The position numbers were made by a program, and so were the translations under genes. The notes beneath the pieces are model-generated. The model searched no databases and was not told where the DNA came from. It worked only from the letters and a program-made list of their open reading frames with translations. A stretch of DNA of 34,870 bases. Source: an uncultured Hyphomicrobiales bacterium (lineage in GTDB: Bacteria > Pseudomonadota > Alphaproteobacteria > Rhizobiales > Xanthobacteraceae). The stretch covers positions 1 to 34,870 of the forward strand of contig CAISIV010000207.1 in assembly GCA_903885555.1 (NCBI GenBank), read 5' to 3'. This document shows, piece after piece, positions 677-31,716 of the stretch (positions are counted from its first letter, which is position 1; each line of letters opens with the position of its first letter).

Positions 677-3139
677 ATGTCGATCACCAGAAACAACCAT
701 TACGTCCCGCAATGGTATCAAGAAGGGTTCTTCGAGCCCGGCCGGAAAACGCTGGCCTATGTCGACATGAGGCCGGACCAGCGTGTCCTCCCTGACGGGC
801 GCTTGATCACTCAAAACGGCGCGTGGAACGACACTCCGACTTCTAAGGCATTCTGCCAGAGGGACTTGTACTCGACCTTCTTCGGGACGTCCGTCAACGA
901 CGAAATCGAACGCCGCTTGTTCGGCGATGTCGATACCAAAGGTTCGCAAGCCGTCCGCGCGTTCATCGGAACAGACGTAGGCGAGTGGCACGATCATTTT
1001 CAAAGCTTTTTTGATTTTATCGACATTCAAAAAATACGCACGCCAAAGGGGTTGGCTTGGCTGGCGGCCCAGTATCCGTCTCTCACGCAGAACGACCTGA
1101 TGTTTGAGATGCAGGGCATCCGCATGCTGCACTGCGCGATCTGGGTCGGTGGCGTCCGCGAGATCGTCTCTGCCGAAGACTCCGACGTGAAATTTATTAC
1201 GAGCGACCATCCCGTGACGATCTACAACCACGCGGTGTCTCCCACGGATGACGCGTGCACGTATCCCCTCGATCCCGCAATTGCGCTGCGGGCTTCGCAG
1301 ACACTTTACCCGATGGACCGCAATCACTGTCTAATCCTAACGAACCTGGAGTATGCGAAGGACCCCGGCACCGCGCCGCTCCAGAAAAGAACCTTTGCGC
1401 GCAACTACCGGCAGTCCATGACCAAGATCGACGCGTTTATCCGCGAGCGGAAGCTCACGGCGCAGGAAGTCGCAGAAATCAATTTCATCATCAAGAAGCG
1501 TGCGCGCCGCTACATAGCCGGTGGGCGCAAGGAATGGCTGTACCCAGAAAGGGTCGTGACGCAGCCGTGGAGCGAGCTCCGGAAAACGCTAATGCCGCCG
1601 GAGCTTGGCCTATTCGAGTTCGGTGGCGAGATATTCGTTAAGTACGAGAGCGGCGATGTCCATTATCAGGACGAGTTCGGCAGGACCGAGAAGCCCCGGG
1701 AATTTCTGATCAAGAAGCCAGCAGACAAGCCGTTGCGGCCGGGCGACTACTGCGGATGTGGCCAGGGAAAATCTTTCAAGGATTGCTGCCAGTCGAAGCC
1801 CGAGGCGCTGCGCCCGGCTTGGAACGAGAAGAGCGTCCGCGAGCGAAACCTGATGCTGCAAAACGGGATTGTGAATGTCCTAGAGCTCAAGTCTGGAAAA
1901 GATTGGACGCAGATTCGCCGCGAGCTGACCGACGATAAGATAGGCAAGATTTACGGTCTTTACGAGGCGCTCTGGCCGCTCGAGACGGACTTGCTCGCGC
2001 TGCTGCCAAAGCCCGACGGAGTTGCTCGGGCGATCTACACGGGGTCTATCCACCCTTCGTCGATTAGCGACTTCGCCTTTGCAGCTCCGCTGTACTTCGG
2101 CGAGTTGATCGTGGCACATCCATTCATCCACTCCGGAGTAATGGCCAAAAAGTATCGCCCGACTGAAAATCCGAAGTCCTATCGGCAGGAATTCTTGAAG
2201 ACGGTTTTATTTTTCCTGAACATCATGCCGCTCGTCGATCTCGGCTTGGTCAACCTCATACCGGACCCTTGCGATTTCGATTTCCATCTGCGCGAGCAGA
2301 TGATGCAGATGGCTCAGGACCGCTCTACGAGACTACAGCTTGATCCAAATAACGAGCCTCGGCTTCGAAAGCAGGTGGAAGAGGACAACCGGCGCAGCAT
2401 TATGCTGATGCCCCCGGACGCAATGCGCAGGCAACTCCGCCAGCTCATGCCGAATATGGATGACGCGCAGATTGAAGCGACGATGCGTTTCGCTGAGCAG
2501 AAAAGGGAGATGGACCCCTTAGCGGTCCTTCAGGAAGGCTCTCTGGAAGGCGGTAAAGGCGGCGGGCAGATGAACATGTTCAAGCTCGTCCCGAACTTCG
2601 AAATGACGATGTATCTGGCCCAGGCAACGGGCGCCTGCATAGTTACAGATAGTCCGTTCCGTTGGAGAGAGGTCCAAAACGCTATCCGGCAGCGCTATAA
2701 GGCTGCGACTCCCGGTCTTGCCTCGCTCGTGACCGACATCGAGCGCTCAAAATTTGTGTTCCTGCAGAGCGCGACGGACGTGGTGGATGCGGCCCTTAGC
2801 AAGACAGGTGCGGGCTATCGGGATTTGTTCCGAGACCTCTTTAAGTACCTTTCCAATCTAGAAGAGCGCGGGACGAAACCCAATCGCGAGGCGCAGTTGG
2901 TCGGCCGGTTTGCCAGAGAGCATGCCGCGGCGCAGGCCAGATTTAAAAAGTCGGGCTTACTCGTGAAGGAGGGGCGCATCTCGTGCGTCTTCCCTCCGGG
3001 CGGCATACAGGACAATACGGTCAACCGGCTGCTCTTGATGTCGAGTTCTGAGAGGCACTTATCAGGTGTGCCGATGGCCTTCTTCATCGAACCCGCCGAA
3101 CTTCGCGCACCCGTGCTAAACTCCACCCGACTCGAATAG
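677..3139 (+). CDS. DUF4238 domain protein with central SEC-C zinc motif
   Basis: An 820-aa protein. The N-terminus (NHYVPQWYQEGF, residues 7-18) and the core motif FITSDHP (about 173-179) match the DUF4238 family, whose biochemical role is unknown. A SEC-C type zinc-binding motif follows at residues 359-371 (CGCGQGKSFKDCC, ligands C359, C361, C370 and C371). The roughly 440 residues after it match nothing I recognise, but they contain a second, similar element, IVTDSP (655-660), which may be a diverged copy of the DUF4238 core. No signal peptide or membrane segment is seen. Base composition is visibly less GC-rich than in the neighbours and codon choice is less biased. It stands alone between a terminator and a housekeeping gene, so it is probably an acquired accessory gene. 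A defence or toxin role is possible but unproven. The ATG at 677 has no clear Shine-Dalgarno sequence. Confidence 0.8.
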   Translation: MSITRNNHYVPQWYQEGFFEPGRKTLAYVDMRPDQRVLPDGRLITQNGAWNDTPTSKAFCQRDLYSTFFGTSVNDEIERRLFGDVDTKGSQAVRAFIGTDVGEWHDHFQSFFDFIDIQKIRTPKGLAWLAAQYPSLTQNDLMFEMQGIRMLHCAIWVGGVREIVSAEDSDVKFITSDHPVTIYNHAVSPTDDACTYPLDPAIALRASQTLYPMDRNHCLILTNLEYAKDPGTAPLQKRTFARNYRQSMTKIDAFIRERKLTAQEVAEINFIIKKRARRYIAGGRKEWLYPERVVTQPWSELRKTLMPPELGLFEFGGEIFVKYESGDVHYQDEFGRTEKPREFLIKKPADKPLRPGDYCGCGQGKSFKDCCQSKPEALRPAWNEKSVRERNLMLQNGIVNVLELKSGKDWTQIRRELTDDKIGKIYGLYEALWPLETDLLALLPKPDGVARAIYTGSIHPSSISDFAFAAPLYFGELIVAHPFIHSGVMAKKYRPTENPKSYRQEFLKTVLFFLNIMPLVDLGLVNLIPDPCDFDFHLREQMMQMAQDRSTRLQLDPNNEPRLRKQVEEDNRRSIMLMPPDAMRRQLRQLMPNMDDAQIEATMRFAEQKREMDPLAVLQEGSLEGGKGGGQMNMFKLVPNFEMTMYLAQATGACIVTDSPFRWREVQNAIRQRYKAATPGLASLVTDIERSKFVFLQSATDVVDAALSKTGAGYRDLFRDLFKYLSNLEERGTKPNREAQLVGRFAREHAAAQARFKKSGLLVKEGRISCVFPPGGIQDNTVNRLLLMSSSERHLSGVPMAFFIEPAELRAPVLNSTRLE

Positions 3140-14066: not shown

Positions 14067-16385
14067 TCAGCGCCGGGCCAGACGGAAATAAAGTTCGGAA
14101 AGGCGGGCGGGCAAGTCCTCCACGCGATGAACCATCATCGTCTTGCCGCGTCCGAAGATGCGCGCAGCGGACTTGATGCCGGCTTTGCCGAGCACGACAC
14201 CGTAGACATCAATGCCGCCAGCATGAAGTCCAACCGCGGCACGGCGCGCATCCTCGACGAGGTCAAGCGCGCCGGCGTCGATGTCGGACGGCTCGCCGTC
14301 GGTCAGCACGAGAACAAGCTTCCGGCCGGATTTGGTTGCTCCGATGACATGGCCGGCATGGCGTAATGCAGCGCCGAGCCGCGTCGAAAGGCCGGCGCGC
14401 AAACCGGAAAGCCGGGCCATGCAGGCGCGAGTATAGGTCTCCTCGAAAGATTTGATGGTGGTCATCTGGACATTGTTCCGACCGTCCGAGGCGAATGCCA
14501 GTAACCCGAAGGGATCGCCCAGACGCTCCATCGCTTCCGCCAAGAGCGCGACCGCCAAACGCTCGACATCGAGGACGGTGGCGCCAGAAGCGAGCCTGTC
14601 GGAGGTAGACTCCGAGACGTCAATCATGAGCAAGGCCGACAAATCCCGATGTGCGGCTGCCGACGAGCGAAAGACCCGTGGGTCCGGAATCTGGTCGAGC
14701 CGCAACGCGATGCCAGCGTCGAGCAAGGCGTTGAGATCGATGTCGTGACCGTCGTGCTGGCGGTTGAGGCGTACGGTGCGCCCGATTGTGATGCCGCGAA
14801 TGAGCTGGCGGACGCGGCTGCGCAGGATATGCGCTTGATCGATCGCCGCATCGATCGACCGGGGGTCGCCAAGATGCGGGGAAACCTCGCGGACCGTCGT
14901 CCACGCAGGCCGTTCGAAGGAATGCTCCCGGTCCCATTCGGGATATCTGGCGATCACAACACCCATGACGTCGGGGGCGATAGGCCGCGCCCGCCCCGCT
15001 GATGCCGCGGTATCGGACTCGGCAGTCGTGTGCTCGCTGTCTTCGGTTTCCTTCCGCTCATCGCTGGCGGCGTCGGCGGGAAGGTCGATGGCCTCGTCCG
15101 GAGAAGAAGTGGTCTTGCCGAAATTCCACAGGCCGACGCCATCGTCGCGATAAACCGGCTCGACAATATAACTCTTGGCGTTGAACTGGACTCGCATCTG
15201 CCCGAGATCGTTGCCCAGTAGCATACCGATCTCACGGCTGATCGCCGGGTCACGAATCCGCGGCGCTGCGTTCGAAAACATCTCGCGCCCTTTGGTCACG
15301 AAGCTCTCGTCGTCGGAATATGCGGGATCGAAAAGCGCGCGGGCCAGCCGTGCGAGGAGGCTCGGCGACGTGCGGATGCCGGAGGGGGCGGCAACGTGAT
15401 ACGGCGTCCATAGCCGGCGCAGTCCAGGAAGTTGGCGCATGGCAAGCGTTTCGATGCGCGCGTCTTCAATGAGATTGACGAGGGCAACCTGCAGCGGTTT
15501 CAGCGAACCGACATTGAAGGGGTAGCTGCCGAACACAAGATGGGCCTGAGCATGGGCCGCCGCTGCGCGAAAGACGTCGCGGGCCGCATCTCCCTCAAAA
15601 CCGCGAAATACCTCGGGCATGCGGATCAAAGGGCCGGCGATCGAAACCCGGCGTGGCGATCCTTGGCTTCCATTGTGCGAAAGAGGGCGCAGTAGCGGCG
15701 AGTGGCCCCACAGCGCGGTGACGAAAGCGTTGAGTTCGATTTCGACCGCCGCGAACGTGACTGCGCTGGCGCCGTGGGTGATGAGACGTTCCGCGAACTC
15801 GTCCTGCAGTGCGAAAAACGACATCAGTCGTTTTTTATCGCCGGCGGATGCGCGTAGGCCTGAGGCAATAAAACTCTCGAACGCATCAATAGAGCCGGAC
15901 GACAGAATTTCCGTCATGTTCTTTGCCACAAGCGAAACCACGATCGGCTCCTTGCTGGCCAGCATCTGCATGGCGCGCCACCAGCGCATCAGCGACGCCT
16001 CGTTTCCGAGAAGCCGGCCGACGACAGGAAATATCTTTAGCGTCGCCGTCGCCGCTTCAGCGCCGGCCCAGCGGCAAATGTCGGCGGCGGCATCCGCGGC
16101 CATAACGAGGGGCGCTACTTGTTTCTGCCTCGACACGACCCGGCTGGCATCCCAGAAAACGATCAGGCAGGTAGGCCCGGCGTTGACGTGGACAAGCTTA
16201 AGCACCGCGGCAGACCAGGCCTCCAAGTCGGCGGGCCCAAAATTCGTGGCGAGTTCGCTCCAGACAGCGCGAAAGAGCGGGCGCAGCGCCTCGCGTTGAC
16301 TCATCGTCTGATGCAAGGTCCGGCTTGCATCGGCGCCCGCGGAATCGATGAGGTGCAGCGTCATCTGCCCTCGATCCGGACTCAC
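14067..16385 (-). CDS. VWA domain protein, NorD/CbbO type (partner of MoxR ATPase)
   Basis: A 772-aa cytosolic protein with a C-terminal von Willebrand factor A domain. The MIDAS metal site is intact: D589, S591 and S593 in MIDVSESTSD, then STRLGAALRHAG and VLTDGEPSD. The region before it (DLNALLDAGIALRLDQIPDP) is characteristic of the NorD/CbbO group. The long N-terminal part is helical and not assigned. Such proteins work with a MoxR/CbbQ-type AAA+ ATPase to load metal cofactors into, or reactivate, a client enzyme (Rubisco, NO reductase and others). The GTG start overlaps the stop of the ATPase gene by 4 bases (GTGA), which implies translational coupling; an ATG at 16364 is the alternative. 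None of the known client enzymes is nearby. Confidence 0.88.
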   Translation of the reverse strand: MSPDRGQMTLHLIDSAGADASRTLHQTMSQREALRPLFRAVWSELATNFGPADLEAWSAAVLKLVHVNAGPTCLIVFWDASRVVSRQKQVAPLVMAADAAADICRWAGAEAATATLKIFPVVGRLLGNEASLMRWWRAMQMLASKEPIVVSLVAKNMTEILSSGSIDAFESFIASGLRASAGDKKRLMSFFALQDEFAERLITHGASAVTFAAVEIELNAFVTALWGHSPLLRPLSHNGSQGSPRRVSIAGPLIRMPEVFRGFEGDAARDVFRAAAAHAQAHLVFGSYPFNVGSLKPLQVALVNLIEDARIETLAMRQLPGLRRLWTPYHVAAPSGIRTSPSLLARLARALFDPAYSDDESFVTKGREMFSNAAPRIRDPAISREIGMLLGNDLGQMRVQFNAKSYIVEPVYRDDGVGLWNFGKTTSSPDEAIDLPADAASDERKETEDSEHTTAESDTAASAGRARPIAPDVMGVVIARYPEWDREHSFERPAWTTVREVSPHLGDPRSIDAAIDQAHILRSRVRQLIRGITIGRTVRLNRQHDGHDIDLNALLDAGIALRLDQIPDPRVFRSSAAAHRDLSALLMIDVSESTSDRLASGATVLDVERLAVALLAEAMERLGDPFGLLAFASDGRNNVQMTTIKSFEETYTRACMARLSGLRAGLSTRLGAALRHAGHVIGATKSGRKLVLVLTDGEPSDIDAGALDLVEDARRAAVGLHAGGIDVYGVVLGKAGIKSAARIFGRGKTMMVHRVEDLPARLSELYFRLARR

Positions 16386-17230
16386 GGCAGGCAGGCCCGA
16401 ATGGCCTCGGTCAGCGCCGCGCGGATGTCGATGTTGTCGGTGATCGGAATAACGATGCTGGATTGCACGGCGCTCTCCAGCGGCAAGCCGGCGCGCACCA
16501 ATCGCCCGGCATGAATGAGCATTCGGGTGGATGCACCCTCATCCAGCCCGTGGCCTTGAAGGTTGCGGGTGCGCTCGGCGATGGCGACAAGCGTCTTCGC
16601 AAGTTCTGCGTCGGTGCCGCCCTCGCGCGCCACGATCGCCGCTTCAGTCGCGGCCGGGGGATAGCCAAAGTCGATGGCGACAAAGCGCTGCTTGGTCGAT
16701 TCTTTCAGATCTTTGACGGCGCTCTGGTATCCGGGATTGTAGGAAATCGTCAGCTGAAAATCGGCATGCGCGGGCACGACTTCGTTTCGCTTGTCGAGCG
16801 GCAGAATGCGGCGCGCGTCGGTGAGAGGATGCAGCACGACAGTCGTGTCCTGACGCGCCTCGACGACTTCGTCGAGATAGCAGATCGCGCCGTGCCGCAC
16901 TGCCAATGTCAGCGGGCCGTCATGCCAAACCGTGCCGCTGGGTTCGAGCAGATAGCGCCCGGCCAGATCGGCCGCGGTCATATCCTCATGGGCCGCAACC
17001 GTGATCAACGGCCGTCCAAGCTTCCAGGCCATATGCTCGATGAATCGCGTCTTGCCGCAACCGGTAGGCCCTTTCAGCATGACGGGAAGACGCTCGGCGT
17101 AGGCCGCCGAAAAGACCATCACCTCGTCGCCAACGGGCTGGTAATAAGGCTCTGTGCTGATCCGATAGGCGTCAAGATCCACGAAACCCTCCGCAGGCGG
17201 GCGAAGGAAGCATCTGACGGCTTGCGTCAC
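16382..17230 (-). CDS. MoxR-family AAA+ ATPase, CbbQ/NorQ type
   Basis: A 282-aa protein. Walker A is GPTGCGKT at residues 54-61 and Walker B is AICYLDE at 114-120. Sensor 1 Asn is in ISYNPGYQ (about 164). The stretch LAGRYLLEPSGTVWHDGPLT and the C-terminal half (GHGLDEGASTRMLIHAGRLV) are typical of CbbQ/NirQ/NorQ. It would form hexameric rings that remodel a client enzyme together with the VWA protein encoded downstream. The GTG at 17230 is the only plausible start close to the domain; AAGGA lies very near it, so the exact start is uncertain. The gene is divergent from a Bug receptor gene, with a 276-base gap. Confidence 0.92.
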   Translation of the reverse strand: MTQAVRCFLRPPAEGFVDLDAYRISTEPYYQPVGDEVMVFSAAYAERLPVMLKGPTGCGKTRFIEHMAWKLGRPLITVAAHEDMTAADLAGRYLLEPSGTVWHDGPLTLAVRHGAICYLDEVVEARQDTTVVLHPLTDARRILPLDKRNEVVPAHADFQLTISYNPGYQSAVKDLKESTKQRFVAIDFGYPPAATEAAIVAREGGTDAELAKTLVAIAERTRNLQGHGLDEGASTRMLIHAGRLVRAGLPLESAVQSSIVIPITDNIDIRAALTEAIRACLP

Positions 17231-28974: not shown

Positions 28975-30849
28975 ATGTCGGTTCGTGTCGGTCAGTCGGG
29001 TTTCCGCCTTCTCCTCGTCGGAGCCGGTGCCCTTATATGCACGGCAGGACTCGCGATCGGCTTGACGATCTGGTGGCTGCATGCGCTTGCCGTCAAGGAG
29101 GCCTCCGCCAACGCCGGTATGCTTGCGACCGTGCTGGCCGAGCAGGCGAATCGCGCCGTTCAATCCGTCGATCTCTCTCTTGAGGATCTCAAAAGGGAGC
29201 TGGAAAGGATCAAATCGCTTAGCGCTGGCAACATAGAGGCCATGGCTGGCGAAAATGTGCACAAGATGATTCTGGAGCGGTTGTCGCATCTGTCGCAATC
29301 GGAACGGATCGTATTGATCGACAAATACGGCTTCACGGCAAATACGACGGTCCAGTTTCCGTCCAACCCGGTCGATCTCTCCGATCGGGACTATTTCCAG
29401 CACTTGAAGCACAATAACGATGCGCGTCTGTTCATCAGCAGCGTTGTCGATCGCCGCTCAGGCAAACAGCTTGTTGTCTTCAGCAAACGTATCAATGGCA
29501 TAAGCGACGAATTTGCCGGCGTTGTTCTGATCAGCGTCGAGTTTACCTATTTCGAAGCCATCTACAAATCGATCGCAACATTGCCCGATCAGTCGTTTGT
29601 GCTGCTGCATCGTAGCGGCAGCGTGATCGTGCGCTATTTCGATGGTAAGACGTATACCGGCGAGAGAATGCCTACGAATTCGGAATGGTACGAAGTCATT
29701 GCACGCGGCGGCGGGCAGTTCAAAGGCCAGTCGGCATTTGATACCAAGCGGCGGCTCGTGGCCGCGCAGCCGCTGCAGGACTACCCGCTTGTCGTCAATG
29801 TTGCCGTTTCGGAGGCCGCGGCGCTGGCGACCTGGCGCATTCAAGCGACAACGATTGGCCTCGGCACGCTGCTTGTAGTGATTTGTTCTGGCGTCTTGCT
29901 GATCGCGCTGAACCGGCAGTTCCGCCGCGTCGTTTCTTCCGAGCTGGCGCTGGTCAAGAAGTCCGAAGAGTTGGAGAAATCCAACGCGACCGTCGACGCG
30001 GCGCTAAACAACATGTCGCAAGGCCTGGCGACGTTCGATGCGACGGCGGCAATGGTGATCTGCAATCGGCGCTATCTCGAAATGTACGGTCTTTCATCGG
30101 AAATCGTGAAGCCGGGATGCTCGTTGCAAGCCATCCTGGCCGACCGCGTCGCCGCCGGAAACTTTCGTGCCGAGGATATCGAGCAGTACGCGCATGAGAT
30201 CATCAGTGCGGCGGCGGCGGGCAAGCGAACCAGCAAAACCATCGAGTTGCAGGACGGCCGTATCATTTGCGTCGTGAACGAACCGACGGTCGATGGCGGC
30301 TGGGTGGCGACCCATGAAGACATCACGGAACAGAAAAAAGCCGAGGAGCGCATCACATATGCTGCGCACCATGATTCACTGACCGGGCTGGCAAATCGCA
30401 AGCTGTTTTACGAACAGCTCGAGCAGGCGCTCAAGCGGGCACGCCGCGGCGAGCCTCTGGCAGTGCTGTATCTGGATCTGGATCATCTGAAGCGGATCAA
30501 CGACACGCTCGGCCACCCGGTCGGTGACAAGCTGTTGAAAGGCGTCGCCAGCCGGCTGCGCAGTTGCGTTCGCGATGTCGATCTGGTCGCTCGCCTGAGC
30601 GGCGACGAATTTGCGATCATTCGGACTTCATTGGACGGTCCGGCAGACGCCGCCGCGCTTGCCGTGCGTGTACGCGATGCCATTCATGAACCGTTCGCTC
30701 TGGATGGGCATCAGGTTATCGTCGACGTCAGCGTCGGGATCTCGATTGCGCCCAACGATGCTTCGGAAGTGACCGATTTGCTCAAGACAGCGGATATTGC
30801 GCTGTACGAAGCCAAAAACACCGGGCGCGGTACGTATTGTTTCTATTAG
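28975..30849 (+). CDS. Sensor diguanylate cyclase: CACHE-PAS-GGDEF (5' part of an amber-interrupted GGDEF-EAL gene)
   Basis: A 624-aa inner-membrane protein. A transmembrane helix (about 9-33) is followed by a periplasmic dCACHE-type domain (IVLIDKYGFTANTT, DLSDRDYFQHLK), a second helix (about 289-313), a PAS-like domain (NNMSQGLATFDATAAMVICN) and a GGDEF domain. The active site reads SGDEF at residues 542-546, with the inhibitory I-site RDVD at 533-536 exactly five residues before it. The cyclase would make c-di-GMP. The frame ends TYCFY-stop (TAG at 30847-30849), and the downstream EAL gene continues in the same frame after TE-MNERM. Homologous fusion proteins read on through this point, so an E-to-amber or Q-to-amber change is likely. 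The start at 28975 has AAAGG upstream. Confidence 0.88.
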   Translation: MSVRVGQSGFRLLLVGAGALICTAGLAIGLTIWWLHALAVKEASANAGMLATVLAEQANRAVQSVDLSLEDLKRELERIKSLSAGNIEAMAGENVHKMILERLSHLSQSERIVLIDKYGFTANTTVQFPSNPVDLSDRDYFQHLKHNNDARLFISSVVDRRSGKQLVVFSKRINGISDEFAGVVLISVEFTYFEAIYKSIATLPDQSFVLLHRSGSVIVRYFDGKTYTGERMPTNSEWYEVIARGGGQFKGQSAFDTKRRLVAAQPLQDYPLVVNVAVSEAAALATWRIQATTIGLGTLLVVICSGVLLIALNRQFRRVVSSELALVKKSEELEKSNATVDAALNNMSQGLATFDATAAMVICNRRYLEMYGLSSEIVKPGCSLQAILADRVAAGNFRAEDIEQYAHEIISAAAAGKRTSKTIELQDGRIICVVNEPTVDGGWVATHEDITEQKKAEERITYAAHHDSLTGLANRKLFYEQLEQALKRARRGEPLAVLYLDLDHLKRINDTLGHPVGDKLLKGVASRLRSCVRDVDLVARLSGDEFAIIRTSLDGPADAAALAVRVRDAIHEPFALDGHQVIVDVSVGISIAPNDASEVTDLLKTADIALYEAKNTGRGTYCFY

Positions 30850-30855
30850 ACGGAA

Positions 30856-31716
30856 ATGAACGAGCGTATGCAGTCGCGCGCCACCTTGGAGCGGGAACTA
30901 CAAAGCGCGCTGACGAACCAGGAATTCGAACTCTATTATCAGCCGATTGTCGGCCTCAAGGAAAACAAGATTACCTCATTCGAGGCGCTGCTGCGCTGGC
31001 GTCATCCGACGCGCGGCATGATATCTCCTGCTGAGTTCATTCCGATTGCCGAAGAGACCGGCTTCATCGTTCCGCTGGGTGAGTGGGTTCTCCGGCAGGC
31101 CTGCACCGAAGCGGCGTCCTGGCCGGAAGAGATCAGCGTCGCGGTCAACGTATCGTCAGTGCAGCTGACGAGCAGCAACCTGGCCAATACGGTCATCGGA
31201 GCGATTGCGTCGGCAGGTCTGCAAGGCGACAGGCTGATTATCGAGGTCACCGAATCGGTATTCCTGGAGAATACGGCCGCCAATCTCGGAAGCCTGAAGT
31301 GCCTTCATGAGCTTGGTGTGCGCTTTGCGATGGACGACTTCGGCACCGGCTACTCTTCGCTCGGCTATTTGTTGAGTTTCCCGTTCAGCAAAATCAAGAT
31401 CGACCGAAGCTTCATATCCGACTTGGCGGATAAAATGGAATCGCGTGCCGTCGTGCGTGCGGTGGTCGATTTGGCGCGTAGTCTCAAGATGCAAGTTGTT
31501 GCCGAGGGCGTCGAAACCAACGCGCAGTTGGAACAGCTTCGCCGGCTGGGCTGCGGCGAAATGCAGGGCTATCTCTTCAGCCCGGCCAGGCCCGCGGCAG
31601 AGATCGATCGCCTGCTGGCGCCGCAGCACAAACAGCTGGTCAAATTGCCCGTTTCGCCGTCGCAACCGCTGGCGGTGGCTCGGCACAGCAAGGCCGCGGC
31701 GCGCCGCCGCGTGTAG
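30856..31716 (+). CDS. EAL-domain c-di-GMP phosphodiesterase (3' part of the interrupted gene)
   Basis: A 286-aa EAL domain that would linearise c-di-GMP. All main motifs are intact: EAL at 43-45 (SFEALLRWRH), the VNVSSVQL Asn strand, IIEVTESVFLEN, MDDFGTGYSSLGYLLSFPF and KIDRSFI. VVAEGVET is also intact. A basic tail (AAARRRV) closes it. It is in the same reading frame as the GGDEF gene and separated from it by one TAG and two codons. The ATG at 30856 has only a weak site (ACGGA), so translation may depend on reinitiation or amber read-through. If neither occurs, this half is a dead remnant. The lack of decay in the motifs argues that the change is recent or that the half is still used. Confidence 0.8.
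   Translation: MNERMQSRATLERELQSALTNQEFELYYQPIVGLKENKITSFEALLRWRHPTRGMISPAEFIPIAEETGFIVPLGEWVLRQACTEAASWPEEISVAVNVSSVQLTSSNLANTVIGAIASAGLQGDRLIIEVTESVFLENTAANLGSLKCLHELGVRFAMDDFGTGYSSLGYLLSFPFSKIKIDRSFISDLADKMESRAVVRAVVDLARSLKMQVVAEGVETNAQLEQLRRLGCGEMQGYLFSPARPAAEIDRLLAPQHKQLVKLPVSPSQPLAVARHSKAAARRRV

Follow-up and report, generated by a model that had tools for sequence, protein, structure and literature searches.

The window (the whole stretch of DNA analysed here, 34,870 nucleotides) carries a gene of the sensor-PAS-GGDEF-EAL type that is divided in two by a single in-frame stop codon (Table 1). On the open-reading-frame analysis a first frame closes with TAG, the codons that follow are ACG GAA ATG, and a second frame resumes from that ATG, in the same frame as the first, to end at its own TAG (31714-31716). 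A single frame is open on either side of the junction, and the TAG is the sole interruption within 2742 bases.

The first product has transmembrane-like stretches at residues 12-30 and 294-312 and a dCache-like region between them (Pfam dCache_1_like at 31.4 bits against a cut-off of 27; dCache_1 at 32.4 bits, below its cut-off of 45), as well as a Pfam PAS_7 match and a GGDEF domain at residues 464-619 that spans profile positions 1-160 of 161. The EAL domain of the second product spans positions 2-235 of 236, and the Pfam scores of the two domains, 171.5 bits for GGDEF and 260.7 bits for EAL, exceed the curated cut-offs of 23.8 and 31.3. Both flanking domains are complete and the TAG therefore sits between two whole domains, which it keeps from forming one polypeptide. 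The catalytic signature residues of both are kept in alignments to 5m1t and 5m3c, and we take the aligned residues to play the same roles as in those structures. SGDEF stands in place of GGDEF, a G-to-S change common to the window and its nearest relative, G034. The initial annotation had described a GGDEF-EAL gene split by a stop codon and had cited SGDEF, RDVD and EAL motifs; the split is real in that one frame lies on both sides of the TAG with both domains complete, and all of the motifs are found in the translations. Among the NCBIfam models listed, the best equivalog match was to the DibA model, and no equivalog cut-off was reached.

Table 1. Features of the interrupted GGDEF-EAL locus (positions in the window).
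Feature	Position	Strand	Remarks
Membrane sensor + PAS_7 + GGDEF	28975..30849	+	624 aa, ends in TAG
GGDEF domain, SGDEF signature, RDVD site	30364..30831	+	Profile match and motifs
In-frame TAG in GGDEF/EAL linker	30847..30849	+	Sense in 37/37 related loci; GAG in the nearest
Gap from stop to possible restart, 6 nt	30850..30855	+	
Complete EAL domain frame	30856..31716	+	286 aa
Second in-frame ATG, alternative restart	30868..30870	+	Duplex -5.4 kcal/mol

Four genes for TctC-type solute receptors lie on the same contig (17504-18511, 21950-23677, 23895-24896 and 32676-33734), together with MmgE/PrpD, CoA-transferase III, HpcH aldolase and amidohydrolase genes. Elsewhere on it, a CbbQ/NorQ-type AAA gene is followed by a large VWA-domain gene on the minus strand (14067-17230), an order that is presumably the layout of MoxR/VWA-type pairs, and an 820-aa frame at 677-3139 has DUF4238 matches in two stretches. 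A search for six neighbour proteins in 22 loci, of which some are short, gave three matches (IclR in L151, 53% over 130 aa; TctC in L146, 33%, and in L160, 26%), with no clear synteny. Promoter and terminator scans returned counts of 2 and 4, near the 1.3 and 3.7 obtained with shuffles, and the 28-mer of the junction was absent from the viral contigs searched.

The codon aligned to the TAG is a sense codon in all 37 related loci compared (Glu in 24, Asp in 6, Gln in 4, and Arg, Val and Ala in one each), as the initial annotation had supposed for relatives, and the linker ATG three codons past the junction is already an internal methionine codon in 32 of them; the split is therefore derived and the restart codon older. 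These relatives all represent other species than that of the window, none being a second strain of it, and the 37 do not include G017 (open frame of 903 aa), the matches G094:C1, G139:C1, G094:C29 and G170:C128 (without locus), L042-L045, L047-L050 and L053-L059, or the weaker matches L069-L089 and rows without loci. The closest copy within the genus, G034:C63 (59% identity in the first part, 77% in the EAL part), is a single frame of 901 residues with GAG at the junction, one step from TAG, so that the proposed one-step change of a glutamate codon accounts for the stop. Relatives with two naturally separate genes had also been envisaged; the same split occurs in none of the 37 loci, and an old two-gene arrangement was rejected on the sense codon at all 37 junctions. 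As far as can be seen, the split appears confined to the window's lineage.

If the EAL half had been released from selection some time ago, traces should be visible in its sequence. Conservation was judged on G034 and 22 other relatives, a set that omits 14 of the 37 loci (the broken copies L147, L149, L150 and L154, and also L041, L051, L052, L101, L106-L109, L111 and L112). The window keeps 42 of 43 EAL positions that are invariant across the 22 relatives, its lone loss lying near the C-terminal edge, and G034 keeps all 43; at the invariant GGDEF positions both keep 31 of 34. Maximum-likelihood comparison of the window with G034 gave an omega of 0.064 at a dS of 2.4 for the EAL part; in the sensor and GGDEF parts dS had reached saturation. 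Relative-rate counts revealed no significant excess of EAL changes in the window with any of seven outgroups (p at least 0.40): its count was above that of G034 with five, equal with one and below with one, and was 23 against 17 with outgroup G006:C213. Nor did the GGDEF part differ significantly in rate. A clear excess would be expected, roughly and on a poorly known dS, if constraint on the EAL half had been absent for over a few per cent of the interval since the window and G034 diverged; any decay of the EAL half has thus hardly begun, which leaves two options, a very young stop or continuing translation of the EAL half. Both fit equally well, the absence of decay being as much in keeping with continued translation and selection as with a young stop. 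As a separate observation, the sensor part (28975-30003) has accumulated changes more quickly in the window than it has in G034 (p at most 0.04 for six of the seven outgroups; with outgroup G006:C213, 69 changes against 35).

The position of the stop, exactly between two domains, invites the thought that it was selected. The G034 gene has 304 one-step nonsense changes open to it, 11 of which (3.6%) fall within the 20-codon linker, and 65 (21%) have an in-frame ATG, GTG or TTG within five codons. A linker placement, with its chance of about 4%, is neat and was picked out after the fact, but is not very improbable, and argues only weakly for a selected split.

Signals for a translation restart are unexceptional. 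The predicted duplex of the 16S tail with the region of ATG 30856 has -3.5 kcal/mol, and 43% of 1083 ATGs in the window are as strong; as a ribosome-binding site the sequence upstream of this codon does not exceed background, and no sign of an evolved site was seen. The alternative ATG in Table 1 is matched by 22% of these ATGs, and the gene's own start (-6.6 kcal/mol) by 11%. The seven other presumed gene starts of the window, called mechanically, range from 0.5 to -10.8 kcal/mol, and two of them are weaker than -3.5, so that a codon with a weak signal may still be a start. The stop-to-start distance of +6 nt is short enough for reinitiation when judged by distances in PMC10666635. According to the available part of that paper, reinitiation is steeply distance-dependent: three E. 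coli gene pairs lost 5, 20 and 70% of it at +2 nt, and 40-80% at +14 nt, which makes some reinitiation at +6 nt plausible. A conserved two-gene state, as in a translationally coupled pair, was seen in none of the 37 related loci. Solved structures, among them 5m1t and 4rni, exist for chains of EAL-only length whose alignment begins at residue 1 of the second product, and the EAL half could accordingly fold alone.

The initial annotation had also offered a read-through switch, which the genome does not support. A tRNA with a CTA anticodon was not among the 33 tRNA genes found, a set in which Trp, Tyr and Ile tRNAs are absent as well and which is thus incomplete, so that a suppressor could have been missed. 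RF1-like pieces are present, none over the curated cut-off and one of them starting at base 1 of its contig, and a further full-length release-factor match may, we assume, be RF2. Genome-wide amber recoding is unlikely on these grounds. A stop at the junction shared by relatives, such as a read-through gene would need, occurs at 0 of the 37 loci.

The genome of the window (G000; 4.27 Mb in 320 contigs) offers further material for comparison. It has 17 EAL matches, the one in the window having the highest score, and 12 of them are accompanied on their contig by an adjacent GGDEF match; the pair shares one frame in 11 of these 12, that of the window being the lone exception. Inner stops were found in none of the 17 EAL and 26 GGDEF matches and in one of 116 ABC_tran matches (150 of 168 ABC_tran candidates were scored), and in-domain stops are thus rare in this genome. 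Across 43 genomes there are 530 EAL matches (column sum), with no inner stop among the best matches listed, which are biased towards intact domains.

Within the genus, four further copies (L147, L149, L150 and L154) are broken, each at another place: by a TAA inside the GGDEF part in G038, by a frameshift in EAL in G006:C213, by a break with an N beside it towards the sensor's end plus a frameshift in EAL in G006:C205, and by a deletion with frameshift directly after the linker in G011. Including the window, the genus has 11 copies whose match to the sensor-PAS part reaches E 1e-80 or better, and 5 of them are interrupted; none of 26 such matches in other genera of the family was seen interrupted, 25 being open frames of at least 898 aa and the remaining one G056:C12, in a sample of 296 genomes drawn from the larger family with five candidates scored per genome. 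The genomes with broken copies are in many contigs (310 in G006, 190 in G038 and 530 in G011), and intact copies likewise occur in fragmented assemblies (G006:C114, 310 contigs; G017, 210 contigs), so that error and relaxed constraint are both possible, and the four broken copies fit either. Two other candidates for a comparable split were rejected: in G023:C57, whose EAL frame has 296 aa, what lies upstream is in another frame and looks like a frameshift, and in G016:C136 the EAL sits at the end of its contig. In G056:C12 (L111, 656 aa) the frame ends 20 codons past the junction, soon after GGDEF, and no EAL match was found in the locus; the EAL domain can therefore be missing. This copy is possibly a natural GGDEF-only form.

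We hypothesize, with a probability of a little under 60%, that an ordinary dCache-PAS-GGDEF-EAL gene of c-di-GMP turnover has undergone a recent, lineage-specific nonsense substitution of a glutamate codon to TAG. The change would have struck the linker of a membrane-anchored GGDEF-EAL protein, whose main product would now be a membrane-bound GGDEF protein without its phosphodiesterase, while a smaller, soluble EAL protein may arise, inefficiently, by termination and reinitiation at the old linker methionine 6 nt beyond the stop. In favour of a recent nonsense substitution are the sense codon in all 37 loci compared and GAG in the nearest, the shared frame of 11 of the 12 GGDEF and EAL pairs in the genome, the near-complete set of invariant positions in an EAL half that shows no significant excess of changes against G034, and, within the family, the differing breaks of other genus copies and the copy without an EAL match. 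Against this, the TAG is seen in one assembly of one strain, the absence of EAL decay is equally expected under continued translation and selection, and a linker position (a roughly 4% event) with a methionine codon 6 nt downstream suits a working split. Such a split, in which each half is translated on its own, with reinitiation at ATG 30856 for the EAL half, and which selection maintains, seems to us possible though rather unlikely. It would agree with two complete domains, a restart 6 nt beyond the stop, the reinitiation at very short distances reported in the available part of PMC10666635, the solved EAL-only-length chains that align from the same methionine, an EAL half without visible decay and, in what is available of PMC11327459, the S. 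flexneri genes dgcM and dgcQ, which have a methionine three codons past the stop and gave two proteins. However, ATG 30856 has no Shine-Dalgarno advantage (weak evidence, since two of seven presumed starts score lower), none of the 37 loci shares the split, and the ATG is ancestral, so no feature can be pointed to that evolved for the split; moreover, in the same portions of PMC11327459, dgcM and pdeR reduced the reporter signal and the second dgcQ band is taken in the discussion to be the full-length protein.

An error in the consensus or assembly of a fragmented draft we regard as unlikely, and slightly more so than a working split. The 320 contigs of the genome and the other broken copies in fragmented assemblies, one with an N beside its break, are what such an error would lead one to expect, yet intact copies come from fragmented assemblies too, nothing but the TAG interrupts the 2742 bases, and inner stops are as good as absent from the EAL, GGDEF and ABC_tran matches of the same genome (0/17, 0/26 and 1/116). 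That the TAG is read through, by programming or by suppression, so that some full-length protein is made, is the least probable of these accounts and in our estimation very improbable: the frame is open and conserved beyond the stop, the incomplete tRNA set might conceal a suppressor, and read-through is discussed for S. flexneri dgcQ and dgcN, with full-length-size bands unexplained, in the available text of PMC11327459, but no CTA tRNA is among the 33 found, RF1-like pieces are present (below cut-off), the gene itself ends in TAG, and none of the 37 related loci has a stop at the junction.

It is conceivable, although we consider it doubtful and a shade less likely than assembly error, that one substitution has made two coupled genes out of that for a bifunctional c-di-GMP enzyme: one for a membrane sensor cyclase and, at a lower ratio and through reinitiation at the linker methionine, one for a free soluble phosphodiesterase. 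If true, this two-gene reading would mean that the phosphodiesterase can be freed from the signal of the sensor in a single step. If the EAL half is made, two enzyme activities that oppose each other can be parted by one base change, because the linker methionine is already in most of the relatives compared; if it is not made, the change is an ordinary loss of phosphodiesterase, with an expected shift towards c-di-GMP synthesis.

Tandem sensor-PAS-GGDEF-EAL proteins such as the MorA-type 'motility regulator' of 4rnh and MucR (5m1t) have the same domain order and linker spacing as the window gene, and SGDEF/RxxD and EAL motifs are likewise common to both, but the window gene is split by a TAG in the linker. 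With the translationally coupled gene pairs of PMC10666635 it has in common a very short stop-to-start distance, +6 nt here; such pairs, as given in the accessible part of that paper, most often have distances of -4 and -1 nt, and the arrangement in the window is without sign of conservation. A search of open-licence papers, mostly by title and the start of the abstract, did not return a nonsense split at the GGDEF/EAL boundary.

The nearest parallel is in S. flexneri, where, according to the part of PMC11327459 available, nonsense mutations occur in c-di-GMP genes: dgcM has a stop at 177 and Met at 180, dgcQ a stop at 56 and Met at 59, and pdeR a stop at 154 and Met at 161. On overexpression of dgcM or dgcQ in E. 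coli BL21 two proteins appeared, which the results section matches to the stop and the methionine next to it, and dgcM gave an unexplained third band. A c-di-GMP reporter went up with dgcE, dgcQ and dgcN and down with dgcM and pdeR, and S. flexneri had less c-di-GMP when dgcE, or dgcE together with dgcQ, was deleted; both coupling and read-through are considered by the authors. The window resembles dgcM, dgcQ and pdeR, as described there, in a premature stop followed by a methionine within 3-7 codons, in an intact downstream catalytic domain, and in the intact copies of relatives, which are related strains for the Shigella genes and other species, with an uninterrupted codon, for the window. 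It differs in that the Shigella stops precede GGDEF and remove the upstream part, whereas the stop in the window falls between GGDEF and EAL and removes the phosphodiesterase. On the S. flexneri cases in the available part of PMC11327459, the pattern in the window thus belongs to a type already described, its break lying at another domain boundary.
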